The position numbers and the translations under genes are program-made. This document shows, one piece after another, positions 4,881-46,588 of a DNA stretch of 64,000 nt (position 1 is the stretch's first letter; every line of letters begins with the position of its first letter). The stretch comes from Porpolomopsis calyptriformis (lineage: Eukaryota > Basidiomycota > Agaricomycetes > Agaricales > Hygrophoraceae), in assembly GCA_951640195.1 (NCBI GenBank), contig OX621176.1, positions 930,001 through 994,000 of the forward strand, read 5' to 3'. The notes below the pieces were generated by a model. It ran no database searches. It had not been told where the DNA came from and worked only from the letters and a program-made list of their open reading frames with translations.

Positions 4881-5122
4881 GGTCGATTGCAATTCCCAAA
4901 TGATTCCTCGATATATTGACTTCACGACTTAGAGAGATGGAACATTCGCTAGCTAGTGAACCACTCAATAGCATTGCAATTGAGGACTTGTAACCTGCCA
5001 TAACGCACCTCTACACAATATTTTTTTTCATTACAAGTCCTTTCATTTTTTTTCAAGAGACAGAAATACAATTTTTAAAGAGGAGAAGACTAAAGGCTAC
5101 AAATTATACAAGACAAATAAAT

Positions 5123-6692
5123 CTACAAATTCTCTAAAACCATTGCCTCTTCCTTTTCTTCCAAACCCCTTAAAATCTCCTCGAGAATGACAATCCACAC
5201 TTTTACATGTGCTTTCTCCTCCGCAATCACTGCCAACACCTCTCGCAACTTGTCTTCATCGACAGCTGCCACCTTCACCTTGCCTTTCTGACCTGCGATT
5301 GGTCGGGTTGTTTCCTTTGAGCTTTCGCCCACCATTTCCTCCTCGAAGGGTGGGGTCTTGTCGATATAAACCACAGGACCTATAAAAAGAAGAGGTTAGA
5401 AAAGAAAAACAAATGATAGAAAAAGAATTACTTATGAGATATGGCCCTCACTGATTTCCAAACCCCCTTCTTTGACTCTTCCGCTGTCGCCAACTTGTTC
5501 GCGCCCTTCGATTCTGCCTTGGGCCGCAGCTTGAACTTCTTGCCCAAGCGGGTTTCCCCCTTCCAATAGCAGCCTCACTTATCTGTTACGCACTTGATGC
5601 ATAACGGATCAGCGGGGTTGATTTCGCATTCCGCGCTGACCTTTTTGCAGAAATCACACTATGAAATAAAAGAGTCCATTAGTAAAAACAAAAATAAGAG
5701 AAAAGAAGGAGACTCACTTTGCCCTTGACCAGGCGCAAAGTCTCCTCCATCGCTTTTCACTTGCGGTACTCCTGCATCATCATCACTGGAAGGGATCATC
5801 CCTTCTCTGCCATTCTCTCCTGATACGCCGCCTTCAACCGCTCAACCAGTTCTTCAGCAGTCAGTGATTGTGCTGCTGCCGTCAATTCATCTTCACCATC
5901 CGGGGGCTGGTGCCCATCCTCCGTCGTCTCCGTCGTCACCCCCGTTGTATCTGGCATGTCTGCCGACACCTCTGCCACCTTTGTTTCACCTTCGCCCGCC
6001 ACCTTTTCCATCTCTCGACAGAACTCCTCCTCATTGATCTTTCCATCCATAAGCGACTGGAGGAGCCTCTCGTAGGCTTCCTCTATCCACTTCCGGCCCT
6101 CCATGTCCCATTCCTCCTGTACCTCTCGCTCCCGCTTCTCACACACCTCCCATTCCACCCTCTCGACCTGCTCGTGCTCCTCTCGCTTCTCTTGTTCTTC
6201 ATGCTCTGCTCGCTCTCATTCCTCTCGCTCCTTGCACTCAACCCTCTCTCATTCCTCCTACACAGAGGCCTCCACCTTCTCCCTTACCTCGCATTCTTCT
6301 TCCTCCCTTCGCTCTCACTCGACCTTCTCTGCCTCCGCCTTCTCTTTGACCTCCTAATGTACCACCTCTGCCAACCTTGGCATTAGTAGCTCCCCTACCC
6401 ACTCTAACCACCCTCGTTCTTCGAAAGTGTCGAAGGTCTCACAGACCTCCCTTTGCCATGCGACAACCTCATCGTCCATCGATGTTTCCTTCAGGGCCTT
6501 CATGACCTGATTATATGCGATCTAAGAGATGGATTAGCGAAGAAAAAGGATTAAAAACACGAGACTTACCAGCAACTTGCAAAATTGTTGCCCCCAGATC
6601 TTGTAATCTTCGGGTTCAGCAACACCATCCAGAAGCAACTTCATCTGGTCACTTATCTTCTCTTTCACAATGGTGATGATGTTCTTCATCAT
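5123..6692 (-). pseudogene. LTE-1 antisense gene: coiled coil plus Zn2Cys6-like cluster
   Basis: A multi-exon gene on the strand opposite to pol, lying between pol and the 3' LTR. The start is taken at 6692 (MMKNIITIVKEK). A GTAAGT...TTAG intron (about 6521-6567) joins to a second exon with the motif QREVCETFDTFEERGWLEW. A long Glu/Lys-rich coiled coil follows (about 5796-6360). Next comes CX2CX6CX8CX2CX6C (about 5575-5655), the spacing of fungal Zn(II)2Cys6 clusters, then a basic stretch and a last helical exon (5123-5379). A stop lies inside the cluster (after VTDK) and more lie in the coiled coil, so the copy is dead. LTE-2 and LTE-4 carry counterparts. A role in DNA binding is inference. 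Confidence 0.65.
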
Positions 6693-8765: not shown

Positions 8766-9389
8766 GAGTAAGCAGAAATAAATATTATGTCCCAAGTGAA
8801 GACAACAATAAATAAGTCAGGCAGTAAGTTTAGGGCAGGTGGATTAAGTTCAGCAATTGCCGCAATGATAGATGGACAATGAAATTTTCTGGTGAGCTTA
8901 GTCTGTATAAAGACCAAGCCTAAATATACATTTAGAACTCAGAATTTTGCTCACTCATCTGCTTGCTTATTACTTCCCAAAGTATGAAGCTTTCATTGAC
9001 AAGTATACTTGCTAGTGATGGGAGCCTGAATATGAGAGAAAGGTATATTTTGGACAACTGAAACATATATTTGTCATTCAATTGCCAGTTGTCATCCCAC
9101 TCAAAGTCTTTGAACCCCAGACCATTTTCCTAGCTGCTATTGACACCTGTAACATTGTAGCTTTTGACACACTTGGCATGCAATATTTTCTGATCCTTGA
9201 ACCATCCACAGTCATAGATGTATCTTGCATACAATATGTGGTTGGAAGATTATGGGCTGGTTAGTTGTGGGCTATCATTGATAGAAGTACTCATGTTTCT
9301 CCAACTGATGAAGGATTGGTATGGTCAAATACTGGTTTGGTGGGGGGCTTGGAGTGGGTATGATATCGCTTGCCTGGGATCATGTTGAA

Positions 9390-9960
9390 GCAGACTTAAA
9401 GGACTCGTATGGTCAAACACCCATTCATACACAGCTGGGAATGGGCACAATGCCATCCCAAAGCTGCTGTTAGCTCAGGATGACATTCAAGCAGACTTGG
9501 AGGACTTAGGTGGTTAGATGCCCCTTTCATATGCAGCTAGGAATGCGCATGATGCCATCCCAAAGCTGCTGCTAGCTCAGGATAACATTCAAGCAGACTT
9601 AAAGGACTTGGATGGTCAGATGCCCCATTCATATGCAGCTGGGAATAGACATGATGCCATCCCAAAGCTGCTGCTAGGTCGGGATGACATTCAAGCGGAC
9701 TTGAAGGATTCAGATGGTTGACACCCCTTTCATATGCAGCTGGGAATAGGTATGATGCCATCCCAAAGCTGCTGTTAGCTTGGGATGACATTCAAGTGGA
9801 CTTGGAGGACTTGGATGTTGAATGCCCCTTTTGTATGCAGCTGGGAATTGGCACGATGTTATTGTAGAGCTGCTGCTAGCTCAAGATGATGTTCAAGCAG
9901 ACTTGAAGGGCTTGGGTGGTTTCCCATCACCCTTGTATGCAGTCATTAAAGGCTGTGATG
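9390..9960 (+). pseudogene. Ankyrin-repeat fragment (about five repeats)
   Basis: Five tandem units of about 102 nt encode a 34-residue ankyrin-type repeat with the pattern PLSYAA-N-HDAIPKLLLA-DDIQADLKD-DGQ. Two units are continuous at 9518-9721; the others are in shifted frames or contain stops. This is the repeat type found in fungal NACHT-ankyrin proteins, but no upstream NTPase part is present, so only a broken C-terminal piece is left. Confidence 0.75.
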
Positions 9961-13782: not shown

Positions 13783-14531
13783 TATTATTGCCATTTGCAG
13801 AGGAGTTTGCGGAGCATGAACTTTATTATAAATGTGGCAGATATTATATATTATTAATAACTCAAGAAATACTTGATGGATTTTTAAGATTTTATAATGG
13901 AAAAATATATATTTACAAGGGCTAGGTGCCCCCATAGTTATCTTGGAGGATCTTAGCATTTGAGAGAAGTTATAGACATGTATTTACTTTTAGAGATAAT
14001 ATAATATGTGTAGCTAATAACTTTTTAACTAAAATAGTTATCAAAAAGGTAGTAGTGTGAAAGTTGGTCTAATATTTAATACCTAGGTGCCCCAATAGTT
14101 TAAAGTATATAATATAATATTTTACATCAACTGTAACCTATATACTTTGTATAATATTTTTCTAAATATTCTTCCAAAGAATACTTACCAATTCTAAGGA
14201 TTTCTTATATATATGATATAGGGGCACCTAGGTATTAAATATTAGACCAACTTTCACACTACTACCTTTTTGATAACTATTTTAGTTAAAAAGTTATTAG
14301 TTACACATATTATATTATCTCTAAAAGTAAATACATGTCTATAACTTCTCTCAAATGCTAAGATCCTCCAAGATAACTATGGGGGCATCTAGCCCTTGTA
14401 AATATATATTTTTCCATTATAAAATCTTAAAAATCCATCAAGTATTTCTTGAGTTATTAATAATATATAATATCTGCCACATTTATAATAAAGTTCATGC
14501 TCCGCAAACTCCTCTGCAAATGGCAATAAAT
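13783..14531. mobile_element. Foldback / MITE-like palindrome, 749 bp
   Basis: Two arms of about 311 bp (13783-14093 and 14221-14531) are almost exact reverse complements, joined by a spacer of about 127 bp. The arms are AT-rich and carry no gene; identical short open frames on opposite strands are a consequence of the inverted repeat. It is inserted in the CACTA transposase. A clear target duplication was not found. Confidence 0.8.
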
Positions 14532-18256: not shown

Positions 18257-18800
18257 TGTAGGAAATCCATCCTCCCTACCAATGGAAAACCTTTCCATCA
18301 CACAAGAGCTCAACCTCACCAAATCCGCATACACATATCCCAAAACCCGACCCTTCTGACTTTCCAATAAACATTCTGATAACGTCCGCCTCTAACCAGA
18401 GGACTTCCGAAAACACGAACTCCTTCAGAAACACCTCAAACTAATCGGAAAGTCTCTTTTCTTTGTTTTCCTTATCTTATCTACCTTTTCCTATGTTTCT
18501 TTCACCTATCTACCTAATTTCCACTCACATAATGTTACAAAGGAACTATCCTTTGTACACATACCTACAAAGAAGTTCCTTTATTCACCTCCTCTATATA
18601 TATCAAGTAGATAATCACTAAAAACAAGATAGACACACCTTCCTCAATACATACCTTCCCTTCCTACCCAATATATCAAGCTTTTATAAGCTTGAAACCC
18701 CTGTCCATCATCATCTAATTACTGAATCAGTTCCTACATGTTCCGATACCCCTTGGACAAATGAGAGGAATCTCCCTCAAGATCCCTCACGCCTTCTACA
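18257..18800 (+). repeat. LTE-2 5' LTR
   Basis: The 544-bp LTR runs from TGTAGGAAATCC to GCCTTCTACA and matches 46045-46588. The TATATATATC box near 18595 is a likely core promoter. The leader after it (TAATTAGAGCCCACTG) should contain the primer-binding site, but no tRNA could be assigned by eye. Confidence 0.9.
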
Positions 18801-26347: not shown

Positions 26348-26999
26348 GAATGATTGGCTCAGTAGTTATGGGTTTATGTTTCTCTTTTCTTGTTCTGATG
26401 GAAAAGAAGTCTGATGATTCTGATTGCATTCGTGCTACTACAAGTAATCTCACAGGAGGACGAAGTGATGATCCGCTTTGCCCTCAGGGTTTATATAGTA
26501 TTTCTAAAATAGGAGTCACTATGAGTCAGCCTCCACAGTCACCCCATTTTCTATTGTTCACAGCCTCCGATTTACAGCCGTTTGCAGATGAATTGGCGCA
26601 CGTGATAATTTCCTAATTTGGGCATGCACAGACCCCCTCTAGAACTTTTGAATTATTTCTCAATAACGAGGATGCATACACCTTCGGGGTGTCTAGAAAA
26701 GTTGTTTTAAAAATTAATCCTGAGCTGCTGGTAGTAAAAATGAGTGATTCTGACTGTTAGATAATATTATGAAAAATCTCAGCTTCAAACTGTATGTTTT
26801 GAATTTTCCTGCATAAAAGACATTATATTTCGAAAGGAAAATGACTGAGATCATATGTATAAACTAGTAGGCAGCTGCCAGTACAATTTCCATGGTGGTG
26901 CACACTGTCTATGAGTTTGCGCAACCTCATGTCAGCGCAAACACGTTTTGATCTTGTACCACTTTTTCAGAACCTCCGGTGTCCCCTCCCAACATTTCC

Positions 27000-28653
27000 A
27001 TGGTCGACAGTAGGTCCAAATCGTGAACCTAAGCAAAAAATAGACCTGTTGGCCGTCCTCCTAAGAAGAAGATCGATATTAATACTGAAAGTGATCTTAC
27101 CTCTAATACTGATTCTGAGAAAGCCCACCGCGCATATACCAAGCGTTCCTCTCAACCACCTGTGGACCCGAAGCCTCGCCCAAAGCCCAAACCAAATTAC
27201 AAGGGTGCTCCGACATTTTCTAGGCCGGCAATGAACTGTCAATCAAGCCTTCCCACCAGCGATAGGGTATCTCAGGGATATTTGGCCGGTCCTGGGGTTT
27301 CCGGGATACCCGAGGTGGACAAGGATGTATACGATGGATTTATGGATGAAATGGATAGAGAATTCGAACCTGAGTCAGACCAGGACTCCAATAATGAGGT
27401 CGATCAACTGGTGGAAGACTCTGGTAAGCGTTTTTAGCGTTAAACATAGTTGGGACTTACATGGGCAGCAGATATTGCCTCCCCGGATGATGAACATCCA
27501 GTCCAGATACCAATTGATGTACCTATTAATGGTGCACTAGACCGGCTTGAGGTCCCGAGTGACATCCACTGGGGGGTGTTTCAGCTCATTGTCGCGAACA
27601 AGATTGGAATCGCAGAGCAAAATTTAGACGTAACATACAGGTTCTCAATTGACAGCAAGTTGGAGATGCCGTGCTGCCTAAGTTCTTCTACCCACTTGCT
27701 CCAGTTGCTTTGCACCGCTAGCCAACATATCCGAGGGGAGCTCAAGTCTTGTTCCAAAAAACCCTTCACTGTTATTCTTATCGACAAATCACCCGACATG
27801 AGCAAAGATGGAAAGGGAAAAATGGTATGCTTCTTTACTGAGTTTGCGGTTATTCATCCCGACAAATCTGCAGGCTTCGAAGCAGAAGGAACCCCCACAA
27901 GAAACGTCCTCGGGGACTGACAGCTTGGGAATGGGTAGATATGTAACAGCCTTGGAGCTGAAGTATTCGTGTCACGAACACCAGAAGAAGTACTGTTTCG
28001 TGAGGCGCGATGGTGAGCATCGCCATTTAATGCAAGCTGAAATTGCCCAATGGGCACTCATGATTGTAAGTGTCATTTACTTTACTTTTATTACCATCAA
28101 AGTAACTGACTATCGACAGAACCTCAAGCAAGCGGATTTTGAGAAGCCTCCACCTGGACTAAGGCTCGAAGATGCCCTCCTTCCAACTCGCATCCCCAAA
28201 CAGACTACAGCACCTCCACCAGACAATGCAAATCAAGCCCCCCCTTCCAACATGTTCACCTCAAATCCCGCATCTGGATTCCCCATCTCTCCCTATTACT
28301 TCTCCCCGCATCCATACTTCCCACCGTTTCCTACCTGAGAGCCAATCTTTGGAGCCCATGCAGTCCCCAACTCCCCAGCTCCGATATCCAAGAATCCAAT
28401 GGCATTTCCAACCCTCTTGGACTGGCTTCAAGGACTGGATGCTAGTCCTCGCGGTGCCGATGGGCACAACTTCTCTCAATATATATCAAACTTCGATGAG
28501 CACAGAATCATACGCATCCATGAAATCGCTGACCCTGACATCTTTGGCTGTGCCGACCTTTGCTCAATTTGCCCTGGAATCAAACTAGGAACGGCTAACC
28601 TTATTCTAACATACACCCGGGATGATGTCAAAGCGATTCGAAGGTTACAGTGA
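27000..28653 (+). pseudogene. Passenger gene of the Tc1-like element: AT-hook and SAM-like C-terminus
   Basis: Four exons, 27000-27423, 27469-27824, 27874-28065 and 28120-28653, keep frame through GT-AG introns of 45-54 nt and total 502 codons. Early residues include an AT-hook-like RPVGRPPKKK. A middle region has HWGVFQLIVANKIGI, the third exon has CHEHQKKYCFVRRDGEHRH with conserved Cys/His, a Pro-rich linker follows, and the C-terminal region with LLDWLQGLDASPRG and FSQYISNFDEHRIIRIHEIA resembles a SAM-type helical domain. I recall this arrangement from agaricomycete hypothetical proteins. Stops at 27024 and 27030 in exon 1 and a TGA near 28337 break this copy. Function unknown; DNA binding is inference. 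Confidence 0.6.
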
Positions 28654-28672
28654 GATAGCTTTGTGATAGAAG

Positions 28673-28803
28673 GAAGAGATTGACAGAGACGATCGGGTTT
28701 GAAGGGATTGATGCAGATGGGTTGGAAGAGATTGACGGAGACGATCGGGTTGGAGGGGATCGATGGAGATGGGTTGGAAGAGATTGACGGAGATGATCGA
28801 GTT
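28673..28803 (+). repeat. 52-bp minisatellite, 2.5 copies
   Basis: Direct repeats beginning GAAGAGATTGACNGAGACGA, with a period of 52 bp, lie between the two convergent genes of the Tc1-like element. Confidence 0.75.
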
Positions 28804-28937
28804 CAGAGAGAGTGTGGATTGTGGGGATGATACAGAAGATGCTGGGGTATGGAAGTAAGGTGCCAGAGCTTATCGTTGTGCATCAAACCAACATTCCAAG
28901 TCATTCCGTACATTTTCACATTGTATACATGTACATA

Positions 28938-30135
28938 TCAAATGTAATTACAATAGTGATACCAGCCGAGGACATCCTCCTGGCTAATTGTGTATACAGC
29001 TTCAGTAAGAGTAAGAAAAATGTCTGTATTGTCGATAGAACTGAATGCAGCAAGAAATTCATGACGATGGTGATGCAGGTGATTTTTGACAGCCGAGAAA
29101 GCTAGTTCAATTGGATTATAATCAGGGGAATACGGCGGTAGAAATTCACACCGCATCCCTCTTTTGAAGAATCATTAGGGATTATTTTTATGAAGTAATG
29201 AAGACTTACCTCTCGCGGATCAATTCCTGAACTAGTTCCAACCTGTGTATGCGGCAGTTGTCCATCACAATAATGGAATTCAGTCCCGGAAACGGGTTCA
29301 TACGCGTGAGTAGGCCATCGATGAATTGCGCAAACTTGAGTCCAGTAAACGAGCCTTCAGTGATGTCTAGGGCAAGAACCCCATCGAGAGACAATGCGGG
29401 AAGAATAGAATAGCTATAAATATGTCAGTAATTTGGTTTTAGATTGAATAATTGAATAACAAACCGTTGGCCGCGGATAAAAAACGATCTACACGTTGCC
29501 CGGTGCCCTCGCTTCGCCCACCCATGAAGGCGGCCCATGCGACGGTCTGCAGCACTTTCGTCGATGAAAACGAGCTGCTCTGGTGTGTAGTTAAGGCCCA
29601 TGTGGGCAATAAAATCCACTCTTTTTTCGATACTACGCTCTAGCGCTTCACGAGTAACCTGTTAGCATACAGAGTGTAAGAACCTAAAGAAATTGGTATA
29701 ATAATACTCACCGACTTGAGTGTATATCCTGAGCGCTGTAGGGCTCTCCATATCGACGAAAGTGAGACTTCAACGTCGCAGGTACTCTGCAAACTCTGTT
29801 GAAGCTCGTCCAAGTAGACGTCACAATTTCAGGCGATACAGGAGTGTAAGAACTGTCAATAAACTACTGTAGATTGTAAATAACTGAATGAGACTTACTT
29901 CCACATCATCAAAACTCAACGTTCGCCCTGATCGTCCCCACTGATTTGCCATCGGGTGATCGGGTTGTTTGTTCTCCTTGGACATCACTTTGATGCGTTG
30001 GATTTGGCGCTTGCTCACCCCTGTGAGTGCCATTATGTTGAGGATGTCCATCTGGCTGTCAAGCATTCGGGAAATAGCGAGGGTGAGGTCTTGAGAGATC
30101 TTTCGGCCTTGAGGCATGATAGAGGAGGTGAGCAA
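28938..30135 (-). pseudogene. Tc1-like DD34E transposase (5 exons)
   Basis: Exons 30135-29899, 29852-29712, 29658-29465, 29413-29210 and 29160-28938 join in phase through GT-AG introns of 46-53 nt, giving 333 codons with one TGA (Arg expected, after HSCIA). The N-terminal part is a helix-turn-helix DNA-binding region (GVSKRQIQRI). The catalytic core has FIDESAADRR (Asp 1), IIVMDNCRIH (Asp 2) and PDYNPIELAFSAVK (Glu); 34 residues separate the second Asp from the Glu. It would cut and paste the element between the long inverted repeats. The start could be the inner Met at 30117. Confidence 0.85.
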
Positions 30136-30778
30136 TATGTAATCAATGAAACCACCTCACAAAACCTCCCTCAGGCCAGGGTTTTCTTGCCTGCACATAG
30201 AATTAGTCCTACATACACAGTATCTACCCTTTACTTCCTGAAATATAACGTTGTTCGTGCAGGAAAATTCAAAACATATGGTTTGAAGCTGAGATTTTTC
30301 ATAATATTATCTGACGGTCAGAATCACTCATTTTTACTACCAGCAGCTCAGGATTAATTTTTAAAACAACTTTTCTAGAGAGCCCGAAGGCGTACACGTC
30401 CTCATTGTTGAGAAATAATTCAAAGGTTCTGGGGGGGTCTGTGCACACCCAAATTAGGAAATTATCACATGCGCCAATTCATCTGCAAACAGCTATAAGG
30501 TTTGTCATTGTTCTTAGTCATACTGCGGAAGGCTGTGTTGTTTTGATGACTCAACTCTATTGGGCATAGCCTTCCGCAGTATCAGGCTGTGCTGTCTCAT
30601 GACTGGTTCCTATTGTTCTTCTAGTCATGAGATCGCCGCTGTTTCTATCTCTTGTCCGGCGTATCGGGTTTCTCTTCTTTGACTGAGGAACCTCCTTTTG
30701 GTCTTCCCTTTGTGTCTGAGCATATAAAAGATGTGGGGTTGTATCCCTATGCTTCAGTTCAATCCTTGTCAATTTATC

Positions 30779-36499: not shown

Positions 36500-37905
36500 A
36501 CTCGAAATCATCCCAAACCGCTCACACATTGCATCACCTTACCTATCTTCACTAAACAACCTCTCGGAACCTCCCACCTTCTCTGTCCTCACTACTACAG
36601 ACAGCCCGCTATCCATTCCTCAATCGGAAAAAGCCCTTTCATGAGATGCCTACCTTCGGACCATTCATGACTTTCTTATCACCCGAAGACGCCCACCCAA
36701 CACAATGGACGAACAATATAAACGACTCCTACACACTGCCTCCAACTTCTTTGTATTCGACAACCATCTCTGGTGCAAACGACGCAACGGAAGACACTAG
36801 CTCATCATCCTGGAACCTCACAGACTGGATATCATCCAGCAGGCTCATGACGGACTAGGCCATAAAGGCCCCTTTATAACCTGAAACTGATTGCTTGACT
36901 GTTTCTGGTGGCCCTATATTGATCACGACATCTGATGGTTCATCTGAACTTGTCATCAATGTCAGATCTGCCAAACCAAACAGATCTTCATCCCTCCAAC
37001 AGTTCCCACACCAGCTCACCTATTCTGATGCGCCCACATTGACACCATGTTCCTACCCAAGTCCAACAGCTACAAACTCCTTCTGCATGCCCGCTGTTCC
37101 CTCTCCACTTATCCAGAATGGTACCCGCTGAGAACGGAATCAGCTAGGGCTATTGGATCCTTCATTTTCGAAGAACTTCTATGTCGATAGGGTGCTCTTG
37201 AAGAGATAATCACGGAAAATGGAGCCCCATTCATCAAAGCACTTGAATACCTCGCCACCCAATATGGAATCAATCACATCCGAATCTCCCCATACAACTC
37301 CCGAGCCAATGGACTCATCGAAAGACCTCATAGATCTGTCCGGGAAGCGCTCATGAAAGCTGCCAATGGTATTGAATCCAAATGGTACAATGTACATCAC
37401 TCCATCCTATGGGCAGAACGCATATCTATTCAAAGATCCACTGGATTCTCTCCTTACTGGATAGTCCACGGAACTGATCCTCTTTTTCCCTTCGATCTCA
37501 CCCGAGCTACCTTCCTAGTCCCACTAATGGATGCTCCGATCTCCCCAGCCAACCTACTGGCTATCTGAGCCTGTCAGCTTCAAAAACGAGAGGAAGACCT
37601 AGCCCAGATCAAGCAACGATTACTGGATTCACAATTTAAATCAATTCAGGATTTCAAGAAACGCCACGGAAAGCAAATCCGAGACTACAACTTTAAACCT
37701 GGAGCTCTCATCCTCATCCACAACTCTTCAACCAAACTGGAACTCAATCGAAAATCAAAGCCGCAATATCTAGGATGAATGCTCATCATAAGATGAACCT
37801 CCTGTGGCACCTACATCATTTCAGAACTTGATGGAGCAGTTTCCAAACTCCTGATCACTGCCTTCTGCATTCTCCCGTACTTTCCCCGCTTGCATGCATC
37901 ACTCC
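36500..37905 (+). pseudogene. LTE-2 integrase
   Basis: Pieces of the zinc module (HDGLGHKGPF, CHQCQICQTK, 36840-36985) and the core (IITENGAPFIKALEYL, IRISPYNSRANGLIERPHR, 37205-37330) are readable. The second Asp of D-N-G is Glu (TEN). The C-terminal part (ILWAERISIQRSTGFSPYW, FKPGALILIHNSS) ends near 37905, where LTE-4 is inserted at ACTCC. No chromodomain recognised. Broken by several TGA codons. Confidence 0.75.
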
Positions 37906-37915
37906 TGTTACATCC

Positions 37916-38190
37916 CAGTTCCGATGAACTCCGATGAACTCTGATGAACTCCGATGAACTCCGATGAACTCCGATGAACTCCGATAACTCCAACAACTCT
38001 GAACACTCTGTACTTTTCACATGTTTCCTACTTGTGACATCCTCTGTCGTCACTACGTCTCAGATATAATTATCTAGCAGGTATATAAGTACTGCATTTT
38101 TTCCTGTATCTGTAGACAGAATATCAACTAAGTCCTGTCATTTATCCAACTCCAATCTCCGAAATCAACTCTGAAACTTCAGACCTAACA
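37916..38190 (+). repeat. LTE-4 5' LTR with GATGAACTCC repeats
   Basis: TGTTACATCCC to GACCTAACA, 275 bp. Near the start are tandem copies of a 10-bp unit, GATGAACTCC. The 3' LTR (265 bp) has one unit less. A TATATAAG box lies near 38081. Confidence 0.9.
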
Positions 38191-38429
38191 GTATATTCTG
38201 TCTACAGCTCGGGTTTTTATTCATGATGACACAACATACTCTTGAATGTTTCACGGGATTTTCAACTAGAAGTCGATTATCTCTGACCAACTCTGAAACA
38301 AGTCCTGTGTCTCCAACTACGCATATATCTGAAAGGCTTCCTACTGCTTTTCATGATTGAGAAAATCCGTTACGACCCATAACTCTGCGGACTACTCAAG
38401 GTCAAGCATCAACTTTGGTTGAAGAGACA

Positions 38430-39452
38430 CCACAAGTCCAGTCAGCTCAGGAAGCTCCAGAACAGGAGATAGCTGAAGAGAGATTGATTATGGCTTTTCA
38501 AAGTATTGCCACCATCGCTCAAGCTTCTTCTGGAGCCAAACCTGCAAAATCCAAAGTCTGAGAGCCTGATCCTTTCAATGGCTCTGATCTGATGAAACTC
38601 CGACCTTTCCTGGTTCAACTTCAATTGAATTTCAAGGATAGGCCTTCTGCATTTACTTCCAATAAAGCTAAGGTCAATTATGCTATATCGTTTCTGAAGG
38701 GAATGGCGTTATCTTTATTTGAACCTTACCTTTTAGAGACTATTCTTAATCCTCCATTGTTCCTCTCAGACTTCTCGGAGTTCTGCTCCAAGTTACAGGA
38801 CCAATTCGGACCTTTGGATCCAATAGGAACTGCCGAAGTGGAATTGGAATCTTTGAAGATGTTCGATAATCAATGGATCGCCAAATATATTGTGCACTTC
38901 AATAGGCTAGTGGTTCAAGTCCAATGGGATGTTGGAGCACTGCGGCATATTTTTTACCATGGTCTTCCAGATTGAATCAAGGATCAAATGTCTCAAGTTG
39001 GAAAACCAGCCACATTGGTAGCTATGAAGGAGTTAGCTCAAACGATTGATGCTAGGTATTGGGAACATAAAGGAGAGCTTAAGCGGGACTCCAGTTGTGC
39101 TCTGGCACCTCCGACGAATGCTCCTAAACCACCTTCAACTCCAATGACACCTTCTACTTTCAAAAAGACTCCTATGAAATCTACCCCAACTACCTCAACT
39201 CTGAAGCGTCCTGACCTTTCCAATAAGCTTGGAAAAGATGGAAAGCTTACTCCTACCGAACGAAAATGTCATTTGAATAACAACTTGTGTATGTTTTGTG
39301 GATCCCCAGGTCATATGGCAAAGGAATGTCCAAAGTCTGGTTCCTCTGCTTCAAAGAAGGCTTCTGGACATGCCACTACTGTCGCCGAACCACCCACTCA
39401 GGAATCCCCTACTCCTATTCCGAGCACCCCTCCAGCCGCTCTGGAAAAATAG
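38430..39452 (+). pseudogene. LTE-4 gag
   Basis: Readable across two TGA codons (Arg expected, before EPDPF and IKDQ). The capsid-like part runs from FNGSDLMKLRPFLVQLQLNF to FYHGLPD. A Thr/Pro-rich linker precedes the zinc knuckle CMFCGSPGHMAKECP (39290-39335). The frame ends at 39452; pol continues in the -1 frame. Confidence 0.8.
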
Positions 39453-41568
39453 GAGGTAGTCCGCATGAGACATGGAATGTGGACTGCGTTGAAACCATTC
39501 CTGCATCTTCTATTGTAAAGCTCAACACTTCCGTTCCTTGCTCTGATTCCTTTTTGATCACTTTATTTATCGATTCATTATCTATTCTGACTCTTATCGA
39601 TTCAGGATCCACACATTGTTTCTTGGACTTTGATTTTGTCCATTGAAACAAGCTCAAAACATCTCCACTTCCTCCAAAGCAACTCCGATTATTTGATGGA
39701 TCTCAAGGGAGAACCATTGATGCGGGAGTTATCCTCCCTGTCTGATTTCTGTCTGGAGAAACTCTAGATATTGAGTTTTTAGTCACTCCGTTGGATGCAT
39801 CATGTTCTGCTGTTCTTGGATTCAACTGGCTTACCTGCTACAATCCATTGATTGACTGGGTTACAAGCAGTATTTCATTTGGGACACCAAAACCGATGTA
39901 TTCATCTTCATCGTTGACACCTACAGTATGCCCTCTGAGGCAACTCCGCTTGACCCTCCAGTTCCGACTCCAACTCCGACTTCACTTCCTCCTGTGTCCA
40001 TTATTTCAGCAGCTGCATTTTTACATGCTAGCAAGCAAGAAGGATCTCAGTCATTCGTTCTTCAAGCTGCTGATATCTCAAAAGCGCGTTCTGTCGACAT
40101 CTCCGATGTTCCTCCAGACCCTGCATTTTACGCAAAAGTTCTTCCAGAGTATCATGACTATGCTGATGTTTTCAGTGAAGGAAAATCTAAACATCTTCCT
40201 CCTCATCGTTATAGTGATCATCATATTGATCTAGAGGAAGGTACGACACCTCCACTAGGATGCATCTATTCTCTTTCTGTTGCAGAACAAGAAGCCCTTT
40301 GTATATTCTTGGATGAGCACCTTAGAAAAGGTTGGATACGTTCCTCCGGATCTCCAGGCAGTGCTCTGATCATTTTCATCCACAAGAAAGATGGCTCATT
40401 ATGTTTATGCGTGGACTATTGAGGCATTAATAAAATTACCAAGAAAGATTGTTACCCACTTCCACTCATCTCCGATCTCCTGGACCGTGCCAGCAAAGGT
40501 CATATCTACACCAAAATCAATTTGCGAATTGGATACTTCAATGTACGGATTGCGGAAGGGGATGAATGGAAACCCACTTTCCATACCAGGTATGGCGCTT
40601 TCAAATTCTTGGTTATGCCCTTGGGTCTATGCAATGCCCCATCAACATTTCAACGTTTCATGAACAAGATTTTCTCTAACCTCTCCGATATCTCCATTGT
40701 AGTATATCTTGATGATATCCTTATCTACTCGGATAACATTGCGGATCACTGGAGACATGTCCGCAAGGTACTCCAAAGACTCTGACTTAACAGTCTTTTT
40801 GGAAAATTGGAGAAATGTTTCTTTCATCAAGATACGATCAAATACCTTGGATTTATCCTTTCCCCTGGTGGAATTACCATGGACCCTGCCAAAGTTCAAA
40901 TTATCCTAGATTGGCCGGAACCATGGAAAATCAAGGATGTCCAGTCATTCTTAGGTTTTGGAAATTTCTATAGGCGTTTTATCAACAACTACTCAGGATT
41001 GGTATCTCTGCTTATGCAACTGACCCAGAAAAATGTTCTGTGGAATTTTGATACTCCGTGCAAATTCGCATTTGAATCTCTGAAGCAGGCCTTCACTTCC
41101 ACTCCAGTTCTTGTCAATTTCACTCTGGGATCACGTCTGGTGGTAGAAACAGATGCCTCCGATTACACTATAGCAGGCATCTTATCAACTTACACTGAGG
41201 ATGAATCATTACATCCCATCGTGTTCTACTCTCGGACTTTAACTCCGCCGGAGTTGAATTACAATATTCACAACAAGGAGCTATTAGCCATTCACAATAG
41301 TTTTTGCAACTGGCATCATTACCTTGAAGGCTCTTCTGACCCAGTCGATGTTGTCACTGATCACAAGAATTTGGTATACTTTTCTACAACCAAACTCCTG
41401 TCACGACGTCAGGCTCATTGGTCTGAATTTTTGTCAGGCTTTAATCTCATCATTCGTTTTCACCCCAGAAAACTCAGAGCAAAACCGGACTTCTTAACGC
41501 ATCAATATGACATAAATCCTAAAGAGGGAGATAGTGACTATGCCAGTATCAATCCTCAGAACCTCTAA
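39453..41568 (+). pseudogene. LTE-4 protease, reverse transcriptase and RNase H
   Basis: The protease has an intact LTLIDSGSTHCFLD near 39588 and [17 protein letters not shown] near 39810. The frame shifts near 39920. The polymerase has FIHKKDGSLCLCVDY, a TGA, then [19 protein letters not shown] and the catalytic [13 protein letters not shown] near 40705. A TGA follows KVLQRL. RNase H is open to 41568 (VVETDASDYTIAG, HNKELLAIHN, VTDHKNLVYF). Few lesions compared with LTE-1 and LTE-2. Confidence 0.85.
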
Positions 41569-41619
41569 CTGGTTTTTACCTCGGAGTAACTGGCTTCATC
41601 CCTATGAGCTTTATCCTTA

Positions 41620-43129
41620 TTGGATCCAGTGTTAAAGGCTGCATTCATTATGGATGTAGACTCCCTCCACTCAAAAATTCGGAATTCACTTCATGATGAT
41701 CCAGTGGCTATGGAGCATTTGAAGGTTGTGGAGTCCAACTCTGATGCCAACTCCAATCTCCAATGGGCTATCAACACCTCTGGTTTCCTTTGTTACGATG
41801 GTTGTATCTATGTACCCGATGTAGATGACTTACAACTTCAAATTTTACATATGAAGCATGATCATCCAATTGCTGGTCATTTTGGTCAAAACAAAATGCT
41901 TGAATTGATCTGACGAGAATACACATGGCCAGAACTCCGGACCTTTGTAAAGGATTACTGTAACTCCTGTACTATGTGTGCTAGGTCCAAAGTCCCTCGC
42001 CATCAACCTTATAGTTTGCTCAAGCAACTCCCAATTCCGGAGAAGCCTTGGAATTCCATCTCCATGGATTTCATCAAGCAACTCCCTAACTCCGATGAAT
42101 TCTTGTCATTGTTGATTGATTCTCCAAACAAGCTATTTTCATACCAACCTTCGACACCATCACTGCTCCTCAACTCACTCAACTTTTCCTTGTCCATGTA
42201 TTCTCCAAACATGGAGTTCCCTCACATGTCACCTGTGACTGAGGTTCGGAATTCATCTCCCGCTTTTTCCAGTCATTGGGTAAAGTCCTTGACATGCATC
42301 TCCATTTTACCTCCAGGTATTATCTGGAAGGTGACGGACAAACTGAATGAGTCAATCAAACCTTGGAGCAATACCTACAGATGTATTGTAACTATCAACA
42401 GGACAACTGGTCCCATCTCCTGGCTATTGCAGAATTCGCATATAACAATGCTCCGAACGCTACTACTGGGATATCCCCTTTTTTTGCTAACAAGGGTTAT
42501 CATCCAAATATTTTAGTACACCCTGAGTGTGATCTTACTTCCATTCAAGCCAGAGAATTAGCTGTTGATTTGGACGAACTCCACTCCGAACTCCAAAATA
42601 CCATCTCTGAAGCTCAAAAGCGTTATCAGCACTACGCTGACTTAAAGCGTATTCTAGCCCCTGATTTCGAAATAGGAACTCAAGCCTTTGTAAAGGCCAA
42701 GTTTTTCCAAACTACCAGACCCTCCAAGAAACTCTTGGAGAAGAACTTAGGTCCTTTTGAGGTCATTGCCTGAGTTGGAACCCATTCCTATACTCTCTGT
42801 TTGCCTAGTTCCATGAAAGCTATCTATCCTGTCTTTCATGTATCACAGTTGGAACCAGCCTCACCGAATATGATTCCGAACTGAGTACAACCTCCGCCTC
42901 CTCCAGTAATCATAGACAGAGAACCGGAGTTTGAGATCTCCGAAATCCTAGACTCGAAAATTGATAATAGGCATTGCTTATGCAAATTATTGTATTTGGT
43001 TCATTGGGAAGGCTATGAAGGTACCGATGAAGAAACTTCATGGATCCTCGCTACTGAGCTAGGACATGCTTTGGAACTTGTCTTGGAGTTCCACTCCACT
43101 TATCCGGAGAAACCCAGACCTGACTATTG
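41620..43129 (+). pseudogene. LTE-4 integrase and chromodomain
   Basis: Zinc module HMKHDHPIAGHFG and CNSCTMCARS (41850-41985), first catalytic Asp in SMDFIKQLPNS near 42062, later core GDGQTE and LEQYLQMYCNYQQDNWSHL (42330-42415). A frameshift or small deletion lies between 42110 and 42340. The GPF/Y region (LEKNLGPFEVIA) ends in a TGA. The chromodomain (EISEILDSKI, LCKLLYLVHWEGYEG, TSWILATEL) ends at the stop at 43129. Confidence 0.82.
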
Positions 43130-43178
43130 ATTTCTTTCGCTCTTATCTATTCTTTTCTTCGATTCAAAAAATCATTAT

Positions 43179-43926
43179 CTATTCCATTGAAGGGACTATT
43201 TCTACATCCCTTATGGGCATTTCCTCCTCCGACATCTCTGACTCCTCCAACTCCTCCGAACTTTCTCCGCTTTCTCCACTGTCCTTATAATCCCCATCTA
43301 ACAACTCCTCAGTCCTTTCCATGGACTCCCTCATTCTCTTCATCTCCATTCTCATCTTCCTCATCTCCCCCCAAACTCCTTGCAACTCCTCTTTCAAATT
43401 CGCCATCTCCAACAACTCCACATTCCCTCGTCACCACTTTCCTCCATGTTCCGGTTCCTCTGTGGTACTCCAGACATGTTTCCTTTTTGCTGGTTCTTCC
43501 CCAACCCAGCATTTGGCCTTTACCTGTTGGCAGGTGGTACAACTCCGGGCCTTCCCCTGTCTGGTCAGCCACACGCATTCTTCCACGCTCCCTTTCCTAA
43601 CACAAGGCTCGCACAGAGCCCTCCTAGATGAACTCTGGTCAACTCTGGAATAAAGCGGATAAAAAAGAAATTACTTATGGCCTCCTGATCAAGGCCTCTT
43701 GCCCTGATCTTTCCTCCGCCGCCATCTCCACTTGCTCCACTGTTCGAGCTGCCTCCTTTTTTGTAGCTTTGGCTACCTTTCTGGCTGCCCGTCGCTCCTC
43801 TGCCAACCGAAGCTCTTCCTCCATCCTCCAGGCCTCCTCTGCTTCCTCACATTCTCGTTGTTCTTCATTTTTGAGCAAGACTTGCAGTTGTGCAAGTTGG
43901 GCTTGGATCTCTTCGTGAGTGGGCAT
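43179..43926 (-). pseudogene. LTE-4 antisense gene: coiled coil, Zn2Cys6-like cluster, acidic tail
   Basis: Starts MPTHEEIQAQLAQLQVLLKN at 43926; the first exon (to about 43678) is a Glu/Arg-rich coiled coil. A short intron with GTAATT...TTCCAG (about 43639-43675) leads to CX2CX8CX11CX2CX6C (CEPC...CTTCQQVKAKC, about 43510-43612), close to fungal Zn(II)2Cys6 spacing. Another coiled coil (LKEELQGVWGEMRKM) and an acidic Ser/Glu tail end at 43179. A TAA stands directly before the proposed donor, so this copy may be dead, or the splice site is mis-set. Position and strand match the antisense genes of LTE-1 and LTE-2. Function unknown. Confidence 0.6.
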
Positions 43927-44095
43927 TGTTAATGAAGAAGAGTGGTCTGCCAGACCTCATTATATATGTTCTGATTTCAAACTCCGACGATTCTCCGAAA
44001 TCTGCCACATTCCGAAATTCCGATTTCTTGGTCATTACCAAATATGGTCAAATTCAGTATGCAGTCTCAAGGGCTCGCCCTTAAGAGGGAGATAC

Positions 44096-44360
44096 TGTTA
44101 CATCCCAGTTCTGACAAACTCTAATGAACTCCGATGAACTCCGATGAACTCTGATAACTCCAACAACTCTGAACACTCCGTACTTTTCACATGTTTCCTA
44201 CTTATGACATCCTCTGTCGTCACTATGTCTCAGATATAATTATCTAGCAGGTATATAAGTACTGCATTTTTTCCTGTATCTGTAGACAGAATATCGACTA
44301 AGTCCCATTGTTTATCCAACTCCGATCTCCGAAATCAACTCCGAAACTTCAGACCTAACA
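44096..44360 (+). repeat. LTE-4 3' LTR
   Basis: Begins TGTTACATCCCAG right after the purine tract and ends GACCTAACA; 265 bp, one 10-bp unit shorter than the 5' LTR. Followed by the ACTCC duplication. Confidence 0.88.
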
Positions 44361-44551
44361 ACTCCCGATCACACAGATCATCTCACAGAATAACTCCCTG
44401 CCAGACAGACATGTCTCGGATGACTCCAATTCATCCTCAGAGACTGACTGACACATACCAGGGCTTATCCTCACTTAGTTTCACTTAGCACACACCCTCT
44501 CACTCATTTTTATCTAACTCCTTCACTATTCTTTTATTCTAAACAGGACTA

Positions 44552-45909
44552 TTACATAGCCCATTTCCTTCCCTTCCCCTTCTTCTCTGACCCCTTTTCC
44601 ATCCAAGCCATTAACCCGTCTGTCTGCTTGTCTGTCTCGGCCCATGCTCTCCTCCAACCCTCCAATGCCTCAGCTTCCCTCATAACAGCCTTTCGGACTG
44701 CGTTCCGCTTCTCCTCCAACCCCACCACCCAATCCTCTGCTGCCTTCTCCATCTTTCCTCCAATCTCCCGAAGCTCTGAGAGCCTCCGGTGCCCCTCCCG
44801 CACCATCCCGCTGTCCACACTCGCCTGCTGCGCCCTCTTCTGGACCTGGGTGTCCATCTCCTCTTCACTCTCGCCCTCGTCTCCGCTCCCGTCTTCCCCA
44901 CCCTCCGAATCCACCACCGTTACCTCCCTCACATTCCCCTTCGTCTCCCTGGACCCTCGGACTCGCCTTACCGGCCTCGGAACTAGCCTCGGAACTGCCT
45001 TTAGAGGCTGCTTGTGCCTCAGCTTCACCTCCACGCTTGCCTTCCGCTTCGACCCACTGGACTTCAAACACAATGTGTGGTCCCGCGCACATGGACCACA
45101 CACCCCACCTCCCAGATACTTAATGCACGGGACCAGCCACTTGGCACAGCAGTTGCATGCCGGCTCATGACACTAAAAAAAAAAAAAAAAAAAAAAAAAT
45201 GTATATTAGATCATACACGCTAATAAAAATAAAATGACACTTACTTGCACAATGGATTTGACCTATCCGCCCTTCTTTGATAATTCCTCCCCCGCCCTGA
45301 CCTCATCCTCACCGTTCCCGACTCACTCTGACATCTCCATCACTATTCCCCCCCTCTCTGTTGTTATGACCGAAGGCTCCTCCGATACCTTCGATCCAGC
45401 CCCCAGCATCTTCTCCCAGCGGGCCCTCGCTTGTTCAACCTGCTCCTGCTTCTCCTTCTCCTCCTCCTCGATCCTCCTCTCCTCCTCCATCTTTTCTGTT
45501 GTCCTCTCCACTGCCTCCTTGGCCTCCTGCCTCTCCTCCGCGATTGCCTTGGCCTGTGCCTCTTCCTCTATCGCCCTTTCCTTCTCCTCCATCACCTTCC
45601 TTTCCGCCTTCCACTGCTTCCCATGCTTCTCGTACGCCTTGCTTATCTCCTCTGTGAGATCTTCCACCACTCAGGGAATCTCCTCCCCACCCTCTATCAT
45701 CTCTGGGAGTCTCACTAAGAAGTTTGTCTGCACAGACTGATTAGTCCAGTGTCAAGACATATCAAATAAAGACTTACCACGCGATCCGCATTCTCCAGCA
45801 CCCAGATGTCATACCCGGAGCTCTCTGGCCCCTCAGGATGGAGAACCAACATGTCTTGAAGCTCGATAACCAGACTCTTGAAGTCTGTCAGTTCATTGTC
45901 ATTGGACAT
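44552..45909 (-). pseudogene. LTE-2 antisense gene: coiled coil plus Zn2Cys6-like cluster
   Basis: Exon 1 starts MSNDNELTDFKSLVIELQDM at 45909 and ends at a GTAAGT donor near 45778. Exon 2 (about 45738-45250) is a long Glu/Lys-rich coiled coil, with one TGA (EEIP-VVEDL, Arg expected). An intron with a 24-base T run before its acceptor leads to exon 3, which has CX2CX6CX8CX2CX6C (about 45070-45150), the same spacing as in LTE-1. A basic stretch (KRKASVEVKLRHKQP), an acidic region and a helical tail end at 44552. It lies between pol and the 3' LTR, opposite to pol. The splice phase of the last intron is uncertain. A transcription-factor-like or DNA-binding role is inference. Confidence 0.65.
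45175..45199 (+). repeat. Poly(A) run of about 24 bases in an intron
   Basis: On the minus strand it is a T run directly before the acceptor of the last intron of the LTE-2 antisense gene, so it acts as a polypyrimidine tract if the gene is expressed. Confidence 0.7.
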
Positions 45910-46044: not shown

Positions 46045-46588
46045 TGTAGGAGATCCATCCTCCCTACCAACGGAAAACCTTTCCATCACACAAGAGCTCA
46101 ACCTCACCAAATCTGCATACACATATCCCAAAACCCGACCTTTCCGACTTTCTGATAAACATTCCGATAACGTCCGCCTCTAACCAGAGGACTTCCGAAA
46201 ACACAAACTCCTTCAGAAACACCTCAAACCAATTGGAAAGTCTCTTTTCTTTGTTTTCCTTATCTTATCTACCTTTTCCTATGTTTCTTTCGCCTATCTA
46301 CATAATTTCCACTCACATAATCTTACAAAGGAACTATCCTTTGTACACATACCTACAAAGAAGTTCCTTTATTCACCTCCTCTATATATATCAAGTAGAT
46401 AATCACTAAAAACAAGATAGACACACCTTCCCCAATACATACCTTCCCTTCCTACCCAATATATCAAGCTTTCATAAGCTTGAAACCCCTGTCCATCATC
46501 ATCTGATTACTGAATCAGTTCCTACGTGTTCTAATACCCCTTGGATGAATGAGAGGAATCTCCCTCAAGATCCCTCACGCCTTCTACA
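46045..46588 (+). repeat. LTE-2 3' LTR
   Basis: TGTAGGAGATCC to CCTTCTACA, 544 bp, matching 18257-18800. ACGC follows (46589-46592). The 135 bp before it (45910-46044) should contain the polypurine tract and the promoter of the antisense gene; none is obvious. Confidence 0.9.

Follow-up and report, generated by a model that had tools for sequence, protein, structure and literature searches.

Spliced antisense genes with a conserved six-cysteine module in three Ty3/gypsy retrotransposon families of Porpolomopsis calyptriformis

Three Ty3/gypsy retrotransposons, LTE-1, LTE-2 and LTE-4, in a 64,000-nucleotide stretch of the Porpolomopsis calyptriformis genome (contig OX621176.1, positions 930,001 to 994,000; hereafter the window, from whose first letter all positions are counted unless a chromosome handle is given) each carry one multi-exon gene that lies between the pol stop and the 3' long terminal repeat (LTR), antisense and convergent to pol. 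These are genuine spliced protein-coding accessory genes and not shadow open reading frames (ORFs), because splice sites, start codons, reading frame and cysteines are conserved among copies and selection acts on the antisense frame. Their products, in which coiled-coil-like exons adjoin a six-cysteine (Cys6) module, are read here at about even odds (a probability near 0.5) as element-encoded, dimeric, zinc-binding nuclear regulators, analogous to the plant aORF-3R genes and to brtn of the retrotransposon Boty. A role in regulating the expression of the element or of its host may be proposed from LTE-4, the family whose DNA offers candidate target sites.

Conservation and selection of the antisense genes

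Genome searches, in whose counts split matches are entered separately, provided the copies for comparison. LTE-2 exon 3 gave 28 matches, the best 15 loci of which (L009-L023) were aligned, with L013, L021 and L023 left out for exons 1 and 2 because they have no alignment there (n = 12). The LTE-4 gene gave at least 40 matches (40 of 84 candidates scored), from which 30 loci (L037-L066) were aligned, and the LTE-1 gene at least 44 (40 of 92 candidates scored), the window copy and 12 fetched copies forming an alignment of 13. For LTE-1, an antisense match lies within 600 bp downstream of at least 32 of 58 near-complete integrase matches, at the same 40 of 92 antisense candidates scored, and an integrase neighbour stands beside 28 of the 35 listed antisense matches longer than 1.4 kb. 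Most copies have decayed after insertion; the antisense gene is intact in 3 of 30 LTE-4 copies, no exon 2 is stop-free among the 12 fetched LTE-1 copies, and none of the 15 LTE-2 loci has all three exons stop-free.

The structure of the genes is nonetheless held among these copies. The acceptor AG is intact in all copies counted in the three families, and the donor GT is kept in 12/12 and 15/15 copies at the two LTE-2 introns, in 12/13, 13/13 and 10/13 at the three LTE-1 introns and in 23/30 at the LTE-4 intron, every exception being a GT to AT change. The ATG is kept in 12/12 copies of LTE-2, 12/13 of LTE-1 and 30/30 of LTE-4. Moreover, exons 1, 3 and 4 of LTE-1 have a single length in 13/13 copies; LTE-4 exon 1, measured in whole codons, is 246-291 nt long and changes by threes in 30/30, and exon 2 of that gene is in frame in 29/30; and LTE-2 exons 1 to 3 are in frame in 11/12, 10/12 and 11/15, whereas intron lengths vary freely (for instance, 57-85 and 52-77 nt).

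The ratio of nonsynonymous to synonymous divergence (omega, NG86) in the antisense frame is 0.09-0.32 over all nine exons. Specifically, it is 0.205, 0.318 and 0.258 in LTE-2 exons 1 to 3 (12, 12 and 15 copies), against 0.75-1.53, 0.57-0.89 and 0.70-0.99 in the other two antisense frames; 0.289 and 0.247 in LTE-4 exons 1 and 2 (30 copies), against 0.72-0.73 and 0.71-0.93; and 0.092, 0.282, 0.175 and 0.188 in LTE-1 exons 1 to 4 (13 copies), against 0.75-1.48. One sense frame, which has its third codon positions in common with the antisense frame, is also low (0.18-0.52), and in LTE-2 exon 2 it has no stops, against 14 in 1918 codons of the antisense frame. A rough simulation, run in 20 repeats on a star tree of 10 copies with a transition-rich and CpG-rich mutation model, gives a neutral omega of 0.42-0.56. 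Its mean antisense/sense ratios are 0.52-0.73 when only the antisense frame is selected, 0.90-1.45 when only the sense frame is, and 0.71-0.95 without selection. The observed ratios, 0.52-0.68, lie below the simulated sense-only range in 9/9 exons and within the antisense-only range in 8/9; the remaining exon, LTE-4 exon 2, has a ratio of 0.64, above its antisense-only range (0.45-0.58) and within its neutral range (0.59-0.86), and an omega of 0.247, far under the simulated neutral value of 0.48. The low antisense omega is real, although it has to be judged against a neutral baseline of about 0.5 instead of 1, and the simulation favours selection on the antisense frame.

In LTE-4, synonymous differences per synonymous site (pS) amount to 0.235-0.245 in the antisense gene against 0.130 in the adjoining pol (24 of the 30 copies, six with an unaligned pol side being left out), and transversions to 0.010-0.014 against 0.002-0.005 (22 copies, eight dropped), while pol omega is 0.414 there, near the neutral value. 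Because its synonymous divergence is about twice that of adjoining pol, the LTE-4 antisense gene appears to hold older, selected divergence, as if variants were kept or exchanged between subfamilies; the same comparison for LTE-2 was set aside, its copy L012 having an unrelated flank. Transitions make up 88% of the differences among the LTE-4 antisense genes, with 31% in CpG/TpG/CpA context, the mark of methylation decay or of a process resembling repeat-induced point mutation.

The six-cysteine module

The cysteines are spaced CX2CX6CX8CX2CX6C in LTE-1 and LTE-2 and CX2CX8CX11CX2CX6C in LTE-4, exactly as an initial annotation of the window, made from its letters alone, had given them. A six-frame scan for stop-free CX2CX6-8CX5-14CX2CX6-8C finds two matches in the 64 kb (LTE-2 and LTE-4) against none in 100 order-1 Markov sequences, which disposes of a chance motif; the LTE-1 window copy escapes the scan because a stop falls inside its module.

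Among copies, 337 of 347 signature cysteines are kept (77/78 in LTE-1, 173/180 in LTE-4 and 87/89 letters present in LTE-2), and every loss is a change of Cys to Tyr. Within the LTE-2 module but outside the pattern, Cys8 varies freely (of 15 copies, 7 have C, 7 have H and 1 has R) and is a sharp internal control for the pattern; a further LTE-2 cysteine, at position 1, is kept in 15/15. The initial annotation had proposed a recurring accessory gene with introns, a proposal that is borne out by the many copies in three families, their purifying selection and their preserved splice sites and cysteines; the two outcomes that it had set against itself, absence of the frame from intact relatives and cysteines varying freely among copies, were not found in this genome.

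Rather than at the N-terminus, the Cys module stands behind a coiled-coil-like exon. The Cys exons of LTE-1 and LTE-2 open with a Cys codon exactly at the intron end, and the LTE-4 intron ends a few residues ahead of the first Cys. Residues E, K, R, D and Q account for 49-51% of the coiled-coil-like exons, and a single-sequence structure model predicts the C-terminal helix of LTE-2 confidently (predicted local distance difference test, pLDDT, about 95).

Carrier elements and homology between families

The elements have the Ty3/gypsy arrangement, with reverse transcriptase and RNase H ahead of the integrase (the latter judged by eye in translation), LTRs and target-site duplications (TSDs). Pfam finds RNase H in LTE-2 and, together with a zinc knuckle, in LTE-4, and has no match in 7 of the 10 pieces, including all three of LTE-1, which is classed as Ty3/gypsy because its pol is 45-56% identical to that of LTE-2 in the reverse transcriptase-to-integrase pieces (28% in one piece ahead of them). 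The pol pieces of LTE-4, with an end that looks chromodomain-like by eye, are only 18-28% identical to those of LTE-1 and LTE-2. The three antisense genes lie where the initial annotation had put them, ATG and stop positions included; its placing of the carriers in different clades holds for LTE-4 but not for LTE-1 and LTE-2, which are related to each other.

All three genes occupy the aORF-3R position, antisense between pol and the 3' LTR. They have four exons in LTE-1, three in LTE-2 and two in LTE-4, and about 550, 136 and 170 bp, respectively, separate their ATG from the 3' LTR. LTE-1 spans 820 to about 7843, with its 3' LTR from about 7243 (another copy, L079, has LTRs of at least 1.45 kb), and its window copy has an AT donor at intron 3 besides stops in exons 2 and 3. 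LTE-4, whose LTRs are 94% identical over 251 bp, sits inside LTE-2 near the end of LTE-2 pol; LTE-2, with the 4-bp TSD ACGC, is also split by further insertions.

Profile comparisons with hhalign give E 7.5e-5 for exon 3 of LTE-1 against that of LTE-2, at 34% probability and largely carried by the cysteines, E 0.27 for the two exons 1, and E 0.079 and 0.9 for LTE-4 against LTE-1 and LTE-2. The homology of the LTE-1 and LTE-2 genes rests on layout (phase-0 introns, Cys spacing and related pol) more than on sequence. As for capture of a host transcription factor, a genome-wide Zn_clus search finds 21 places, none inside the window, and the 8 of these 21 loci that were compared with pol pieces have no match to them; no host source gene was found in that set. 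The domain PF17667 has 18 matches in the genome but also turns up in 4 of 14 control genomes, and does not establish the host as an agaricomycete.

Candidate regulatory DNA

Zn2Cys6 proteins usually recognise CGG triplets as half-sites. The 117-bp antisense flank of LTE-4 contains TATATAA in 30/30 copies, and upstream of it six positions read CGGA, or its CpG-decay forms CAGA/TGGA, in 30, 30, 30, 28, 30 and 29 of the 30 copies, differing among copies almost solely by CpG decay. In the two LTRs and the flank TCGGA occurs 7, 5 and 4 times against 0.45-0.54 expected, counts each reached in 0/200 null runs, and both LTRs have an excess of plain CGG triplets (P 0.015 and 0.020). The LTR contains a 10-bp tandem repeat, TCCGATGAAC, of which the 5' LTR has 7.3 units, the 3' LTR 3.9 and other copies, by eye, fewer; TCGGAG is never reversed in 21 LTE-4 LTRs (22 copies, 21 of them with a readable LTR start). 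In LTE-1, the flank and LTR contain GAATGTGA four times, and strings like TATATAAG are seen by eye upstream of the gene.

Proposed function and its alternatives

If the proteins are nuclear regulators, the antisense gene would have a promoter of its own immediately inside the 3' LTR, from which it is transcribed, and its introns would persist through retrotransposition because the splice signals do not read on the opposite strand, the one that makes up the genomic RNA. The protein would dimerise through its coiled coils, bind zinc with its six cysteines and act, in the nucleus, on regulatory DNA of the element itself, where it might activate transcription of the element or limit it as copy number rises. 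In LTE-4, the likely targets would be the CGGA-type sites arrayed in the LTR and directly upstream of the gene's own TATA box.

A number of results weigh against this reading, on the side of the protein as well as of the DNA. The consensus spacing of PF00172, CX2CX6CX5-12CX2CX6-8C, is matched by LTE-1 and LTE-2 and not by LTE-4, and all profile scores fall short of the gathering cut-off of 21 bits: 12.2 bits in L073, 12.0 in L071 and none in L067 for LTE-1 (E 0.20-0.23), 9.4-10.5 bits (E 0.68-1.6) in the window copy, L038 and L043 for LTE-4, and no match in the window copy and L010 for LTE-2. Each match covers half of the profile, the first Cys half of LTE-1 aligning with its second half and the second CX2CX6C half of LTE-4 with its first, which hints at a Zn2Cys6-like half-site and not at membership. 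The basic CxRxKxKC stretch between Cys 2 and Cys 3 is the DNA contact of Zn(II)2Cys6 proteins; in the alignment, by eye, the first half of none of the three modules has it, and the second half of LTE-4, CQQVKAKC, alone resembles it. The Zn(II)2Cys6 label of the initial annotation thus survives as a likeness of spacing, without the basic stretch, and the comparison with PF00172 that it had proposed as a check did not support membership. The other Pfam matches of the antisense genes are weak coiled-coil and further sub-threshold ones. Neither LTE-2 exon 3 nor LTE-4 exon 2 gave a homologue in protein searches of a database that may not hold fungal proteins; a profile of the Cys modules gave two matches among solved structures, at E 1.5 and 2.4, not significant; and models of the Cys regions are unusable (pLDDT below 50 for LTE-2 residues 1-89, mean 56.5 for LTE-4).

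On the side of the DNA, the LTE-4 flank shows no enrichment of plain CGG (4 against 2.66, P 0.285), and TCGGA exceeds expectation in the internal sense parts of LTE-4 (22 against 7.1) and LTE-2 (21 against 10.4) as well, so the LTE-4 excess may be partly compositional; the motif null, moreover, covers 16 regions and three motifs and is uncorrected. LTE-1 has no CGG array in flank or LTR, and LTE-2 has none in its flank and a weak TCGGA excess in its LTR (3 against 0.80, P 0.035), so the target-site argument comes from a single family, LTE-4.

The fullest form of the regulator reading, in which the Cys6/coiled-coil protein would read CGGA arrays in its own LTR and promoter, co-evolve with them by tandem repeat turnover, and form an LTR-element counterpart of VANC, similarly built genes being present in distantly related gypsy clades within a single genome, is unlikely.

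The strongest alternative, doubtful as it is, makes the protein an accessory of the replication cycle that acts on RNA or particles (in export of the genomic RNA, packaging, nuclear import or assembly) and whose Cys module would be a knuckle that binds RNA or protein. It would suit a module whose first half is without the basic DNA-contact stretch, and some retroelement accessory proteins reportedly act thus, for example CERV of Cer1, to which the title of PMC10309623 gives such a role. However, a separate strand, introns and a probably separate promoter make an odd position for a structural gene, and a related family (38-40% pol identity) has no Cys6 motif in the 2.3-2.5 kb fetched, on both strands, so that such elements do not all need the antisense gene.

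Rather improbable is a sequence-specific anti-silencing factor that, like VANC of Arabidopsis, would bind short-motif arrays of its own family and remove repressive marks. The 10-bp LTR repeat of LTE-4, which differs in unit number between the LTRs and recurs as the same core in one orientation in the flank, recalls the VANC21 motifs, which likewise stand in dense, uniformly oriented arrays in non-coding regions and evolve as tandem repeats form (PMC5735166, in the part consulted). The excess of transitions and their CpG-type context fit a methylated host, and the greater divergence of the LTE-4 antisense gene than of adjoining pol is also in its favour; but LTE-1 has no array, LTE-2 no clear one, and in LTE-4 the motif also occurs within coding sequence.

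It is very improbable that the antisense RNA alone matters, through interference or double-stranded RNA with the sense transcript, and that the protein is incidental. The convergent layout, 48-129 bp from pol, would allow it, and the idea is discussed for plant aORFs in the passages of PMC7264820 that treat them; as sole explanation it is contradicted by the protein-level selection, with frame-preserving indels and conserved splice sites in three families. Lastly, a shadow ORF opposite a conserved sense-strand ORF, for which the fairly open sense frame described above might speak, is all but excluded by an antisense omega that is the lower in 9/9 exons, by ratios below all simulated sense-only ranges, and by introns, start codon and Cys conservation that make sense on the antisense strand only.

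Elements without the gene and other features of the window

The antisense gene is a lineage trait and not universal. In LTE-3 (integrase, reverse transcriptase and RNase H by Pfam, a chromodomain-like end by eye) pol is open to the LTR edge, and LTE-5, in which Pfam finds RNase H and protease, has a same-strand frame that stays open until about 35 bp before the LTR; since these frames reach, or nearly reach, the LTR, there is no room for an antisense gene, and the Cys6 scan of the window has nothing in either element. The 38-40%-identity pol relatives, sampled at three places that are 89-99.8% identical to one another, have instead a sense-strand ORF behind pol with a helix-like segment by eye. 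Two of the copies (L081 at C7:403700-406200 and L082 at C3:1282000-1284500) belong to a young-looking gypsy family, 99.8% identical between them over 2.5 kb, with pol frames of 1425 aa; their extra sense-strand ORF is a different solution at the same site.

Elsewhere in the window, a DNA-transposon-like insertion of about 3.9 kb (26572-30498) is bounded by terminal inverted repeats (about 270 bp, 89.6%) and seems to interrupt an LTR of 1.7 kb. Outside the studied elements, an inverted repeat of 313 bp lies at 13785-14529, with 99% complementarity and a spacer of 119 bp. At 9376-9933 there are five tandem repeat copies, whose period is about 102 bp and whose similarity to the reference copy is 65-78%.

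Table 1. Positions in the window of the antisense genes and of the parts of their carrier elements.
Feature	Position	Strand	Remarks
LTE-1 pol stop	4991..4993	+	129 bp to antisense stop
LTE-1 gene	ATG 6692, stop ends 5123	-	introns in phases 0, 0, 1
LTE-1 exon 1	6570..6692	-	omega 0.092; 123 nt in 13/13
LTE-1 exon 2, coiled-coil-like	5718..6521	-	stops in window copy; 777-819 nt, always a multiple of 3 (13/13)
LTE-1 exon 3, Cys6 module	5436..5658	-	one stop inside module in window copy
LTE-1 exon 4	5123..5379	-	omega 0.188; stop TAG in 13/13
LTE-2 5' LTR	18257..18800	+	
LTE-2 pol stop	44449..44451	+	100 bp to antisense stop; LTE-4 inserted just upstream
LTE-2 gene	ATG 45909, stop ends 44552	-	both introns phase 0
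LTE-2 exon 1, 44 aa	45778..45909	-	ATG in 12/12 alignable copies; omega 0.205
LTE-2 intron 1, phase 0, GTAAGT...CAG	45728..45777	-	GTRAGT donor and AG acceptor in 12/12
LTE-2 exon 2, Glu/Lys/Arg-rich, coiled-coil-like	45245..45727	-	3 in-frame stops in window copy
LTE-2 intron 2, phase 0, 52-77 nt among copies	45173..45244	-	GTAAGT and TAG in 15/15
LTE-2 exon 3, Cys6 module (45068-45157) and long C-terminal helix	44552..45172	-	open in window copy
LTE-2 3' LTR	46045..46588	+	96.0% identity with 5' LTR
LTE-4 whole element	37906-44360		
LTE-4 TSD ACTCC	37901-37905 and 44361-44365		
LTE-4 5' LTR, 285 bp, 7.3 units of TCCGATGAAC	37906..38190	+	
LTE-4 pol stop, behind chromodomain-like end	43128..43130	+	48 bp to antisense stop
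LTE-4 gene	ATG 43926, stop ends 43179	-	
LTE-4 exon 1, coiled-coil-like	43679..43926	-	ATG in 30/30; length a multiple of 3 in 30/30
LTE-4 intron, phase 2	43624..43678	-	donor GT changed to AT in window copy
LTE-4 exon 2, Cys6 module (43509-43613), helix-like stretch, acidic tail	43179..43623	-	one stop in window copy; omega 0.247
LTE-4 antisense 5' flank, TATATAA and six CGGA-type positions between ATG and 3' LTR	43927..44095	-	
LTE-4 3' LTR, 265 bp, 3.9 units of the same 10-bp repeat TCCGATGAAC	44096..44360	+	

Comparison with known systems

Most descriptions of antisense accessory genes in LTR elements come from plants, and the reviews, in the parts consulted, assign them no function. Here three families of one fungal genome have such a gene with introns and with a Cys6 module that selection maintains, to which LTE-4 adds candidate target sites; this makes the function of such genes directly testable. 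For genome annotation, multi-copy spliced Zn2Cys6-like genes may be miscounted as host genes or transcription factors.

The plant genes with antisense ORFs from pol to the 3' LTR, namely gene23 of maize Grande and those of rice RIRE2, Silene Retand (TRP28 proteins) and PvRetro13 (PMC7264820, PMC11963269, in the passages that treat them), share site and strand with the genes of LTE-1, LTE-2 and LTE-4, but their hosts are plants. Retand proteins carry TRP28 (PF04195), which is not listed for the LTE genes at E up to 10 in seven window pieces and six copy pieces; a Cys6 module is not mentioned in the relevant passages of the two papers, and the word intron occurs nowhere in either main text. Another case is Boty of Botrytis cinerea, a fungal retrotransposon with an extra antisense gene, brtn, at the same site (Zhao et al. 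2011, as reported in PMC7264820 and PMC8365987); the host fungus differs, and the likeness is one of position. In the literature searched, outside which most subscription journals lie, no spliced Cys6 antisense gene of an LTR retrotransposon was found.

Zn(II)2Cys6 factors resemble the LTE-1 and LTE-2 proteins in the CX2CX6CX8CX2CX6C spacing and in a coiled-coil-like region adjoining the Cys module. The LTE genes differ from them in scoring below the cut-off, in a first half without the basic stretch, in a module placed behind a coiled-coil-like exon and, in LTE-4, in the CX2CX8CX11 spacing.

By role, counterparts of the proposed regulators would be HBZ and APH-2 of the human T-cell leukaemia viruses (HTLV), antisense nuclear regulators of a retroelement (PMC11963269, in part), although the hosts are vertebrate. 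VANC of the VANDAL elements is encoded by the element and binds dense tandem motifs of one orientation, as are arrayed in LTE-4 (PMC5735166, in the same part); it belongs to plant DNA transposons, and its likeness to LTE-4 lies in the arrays.

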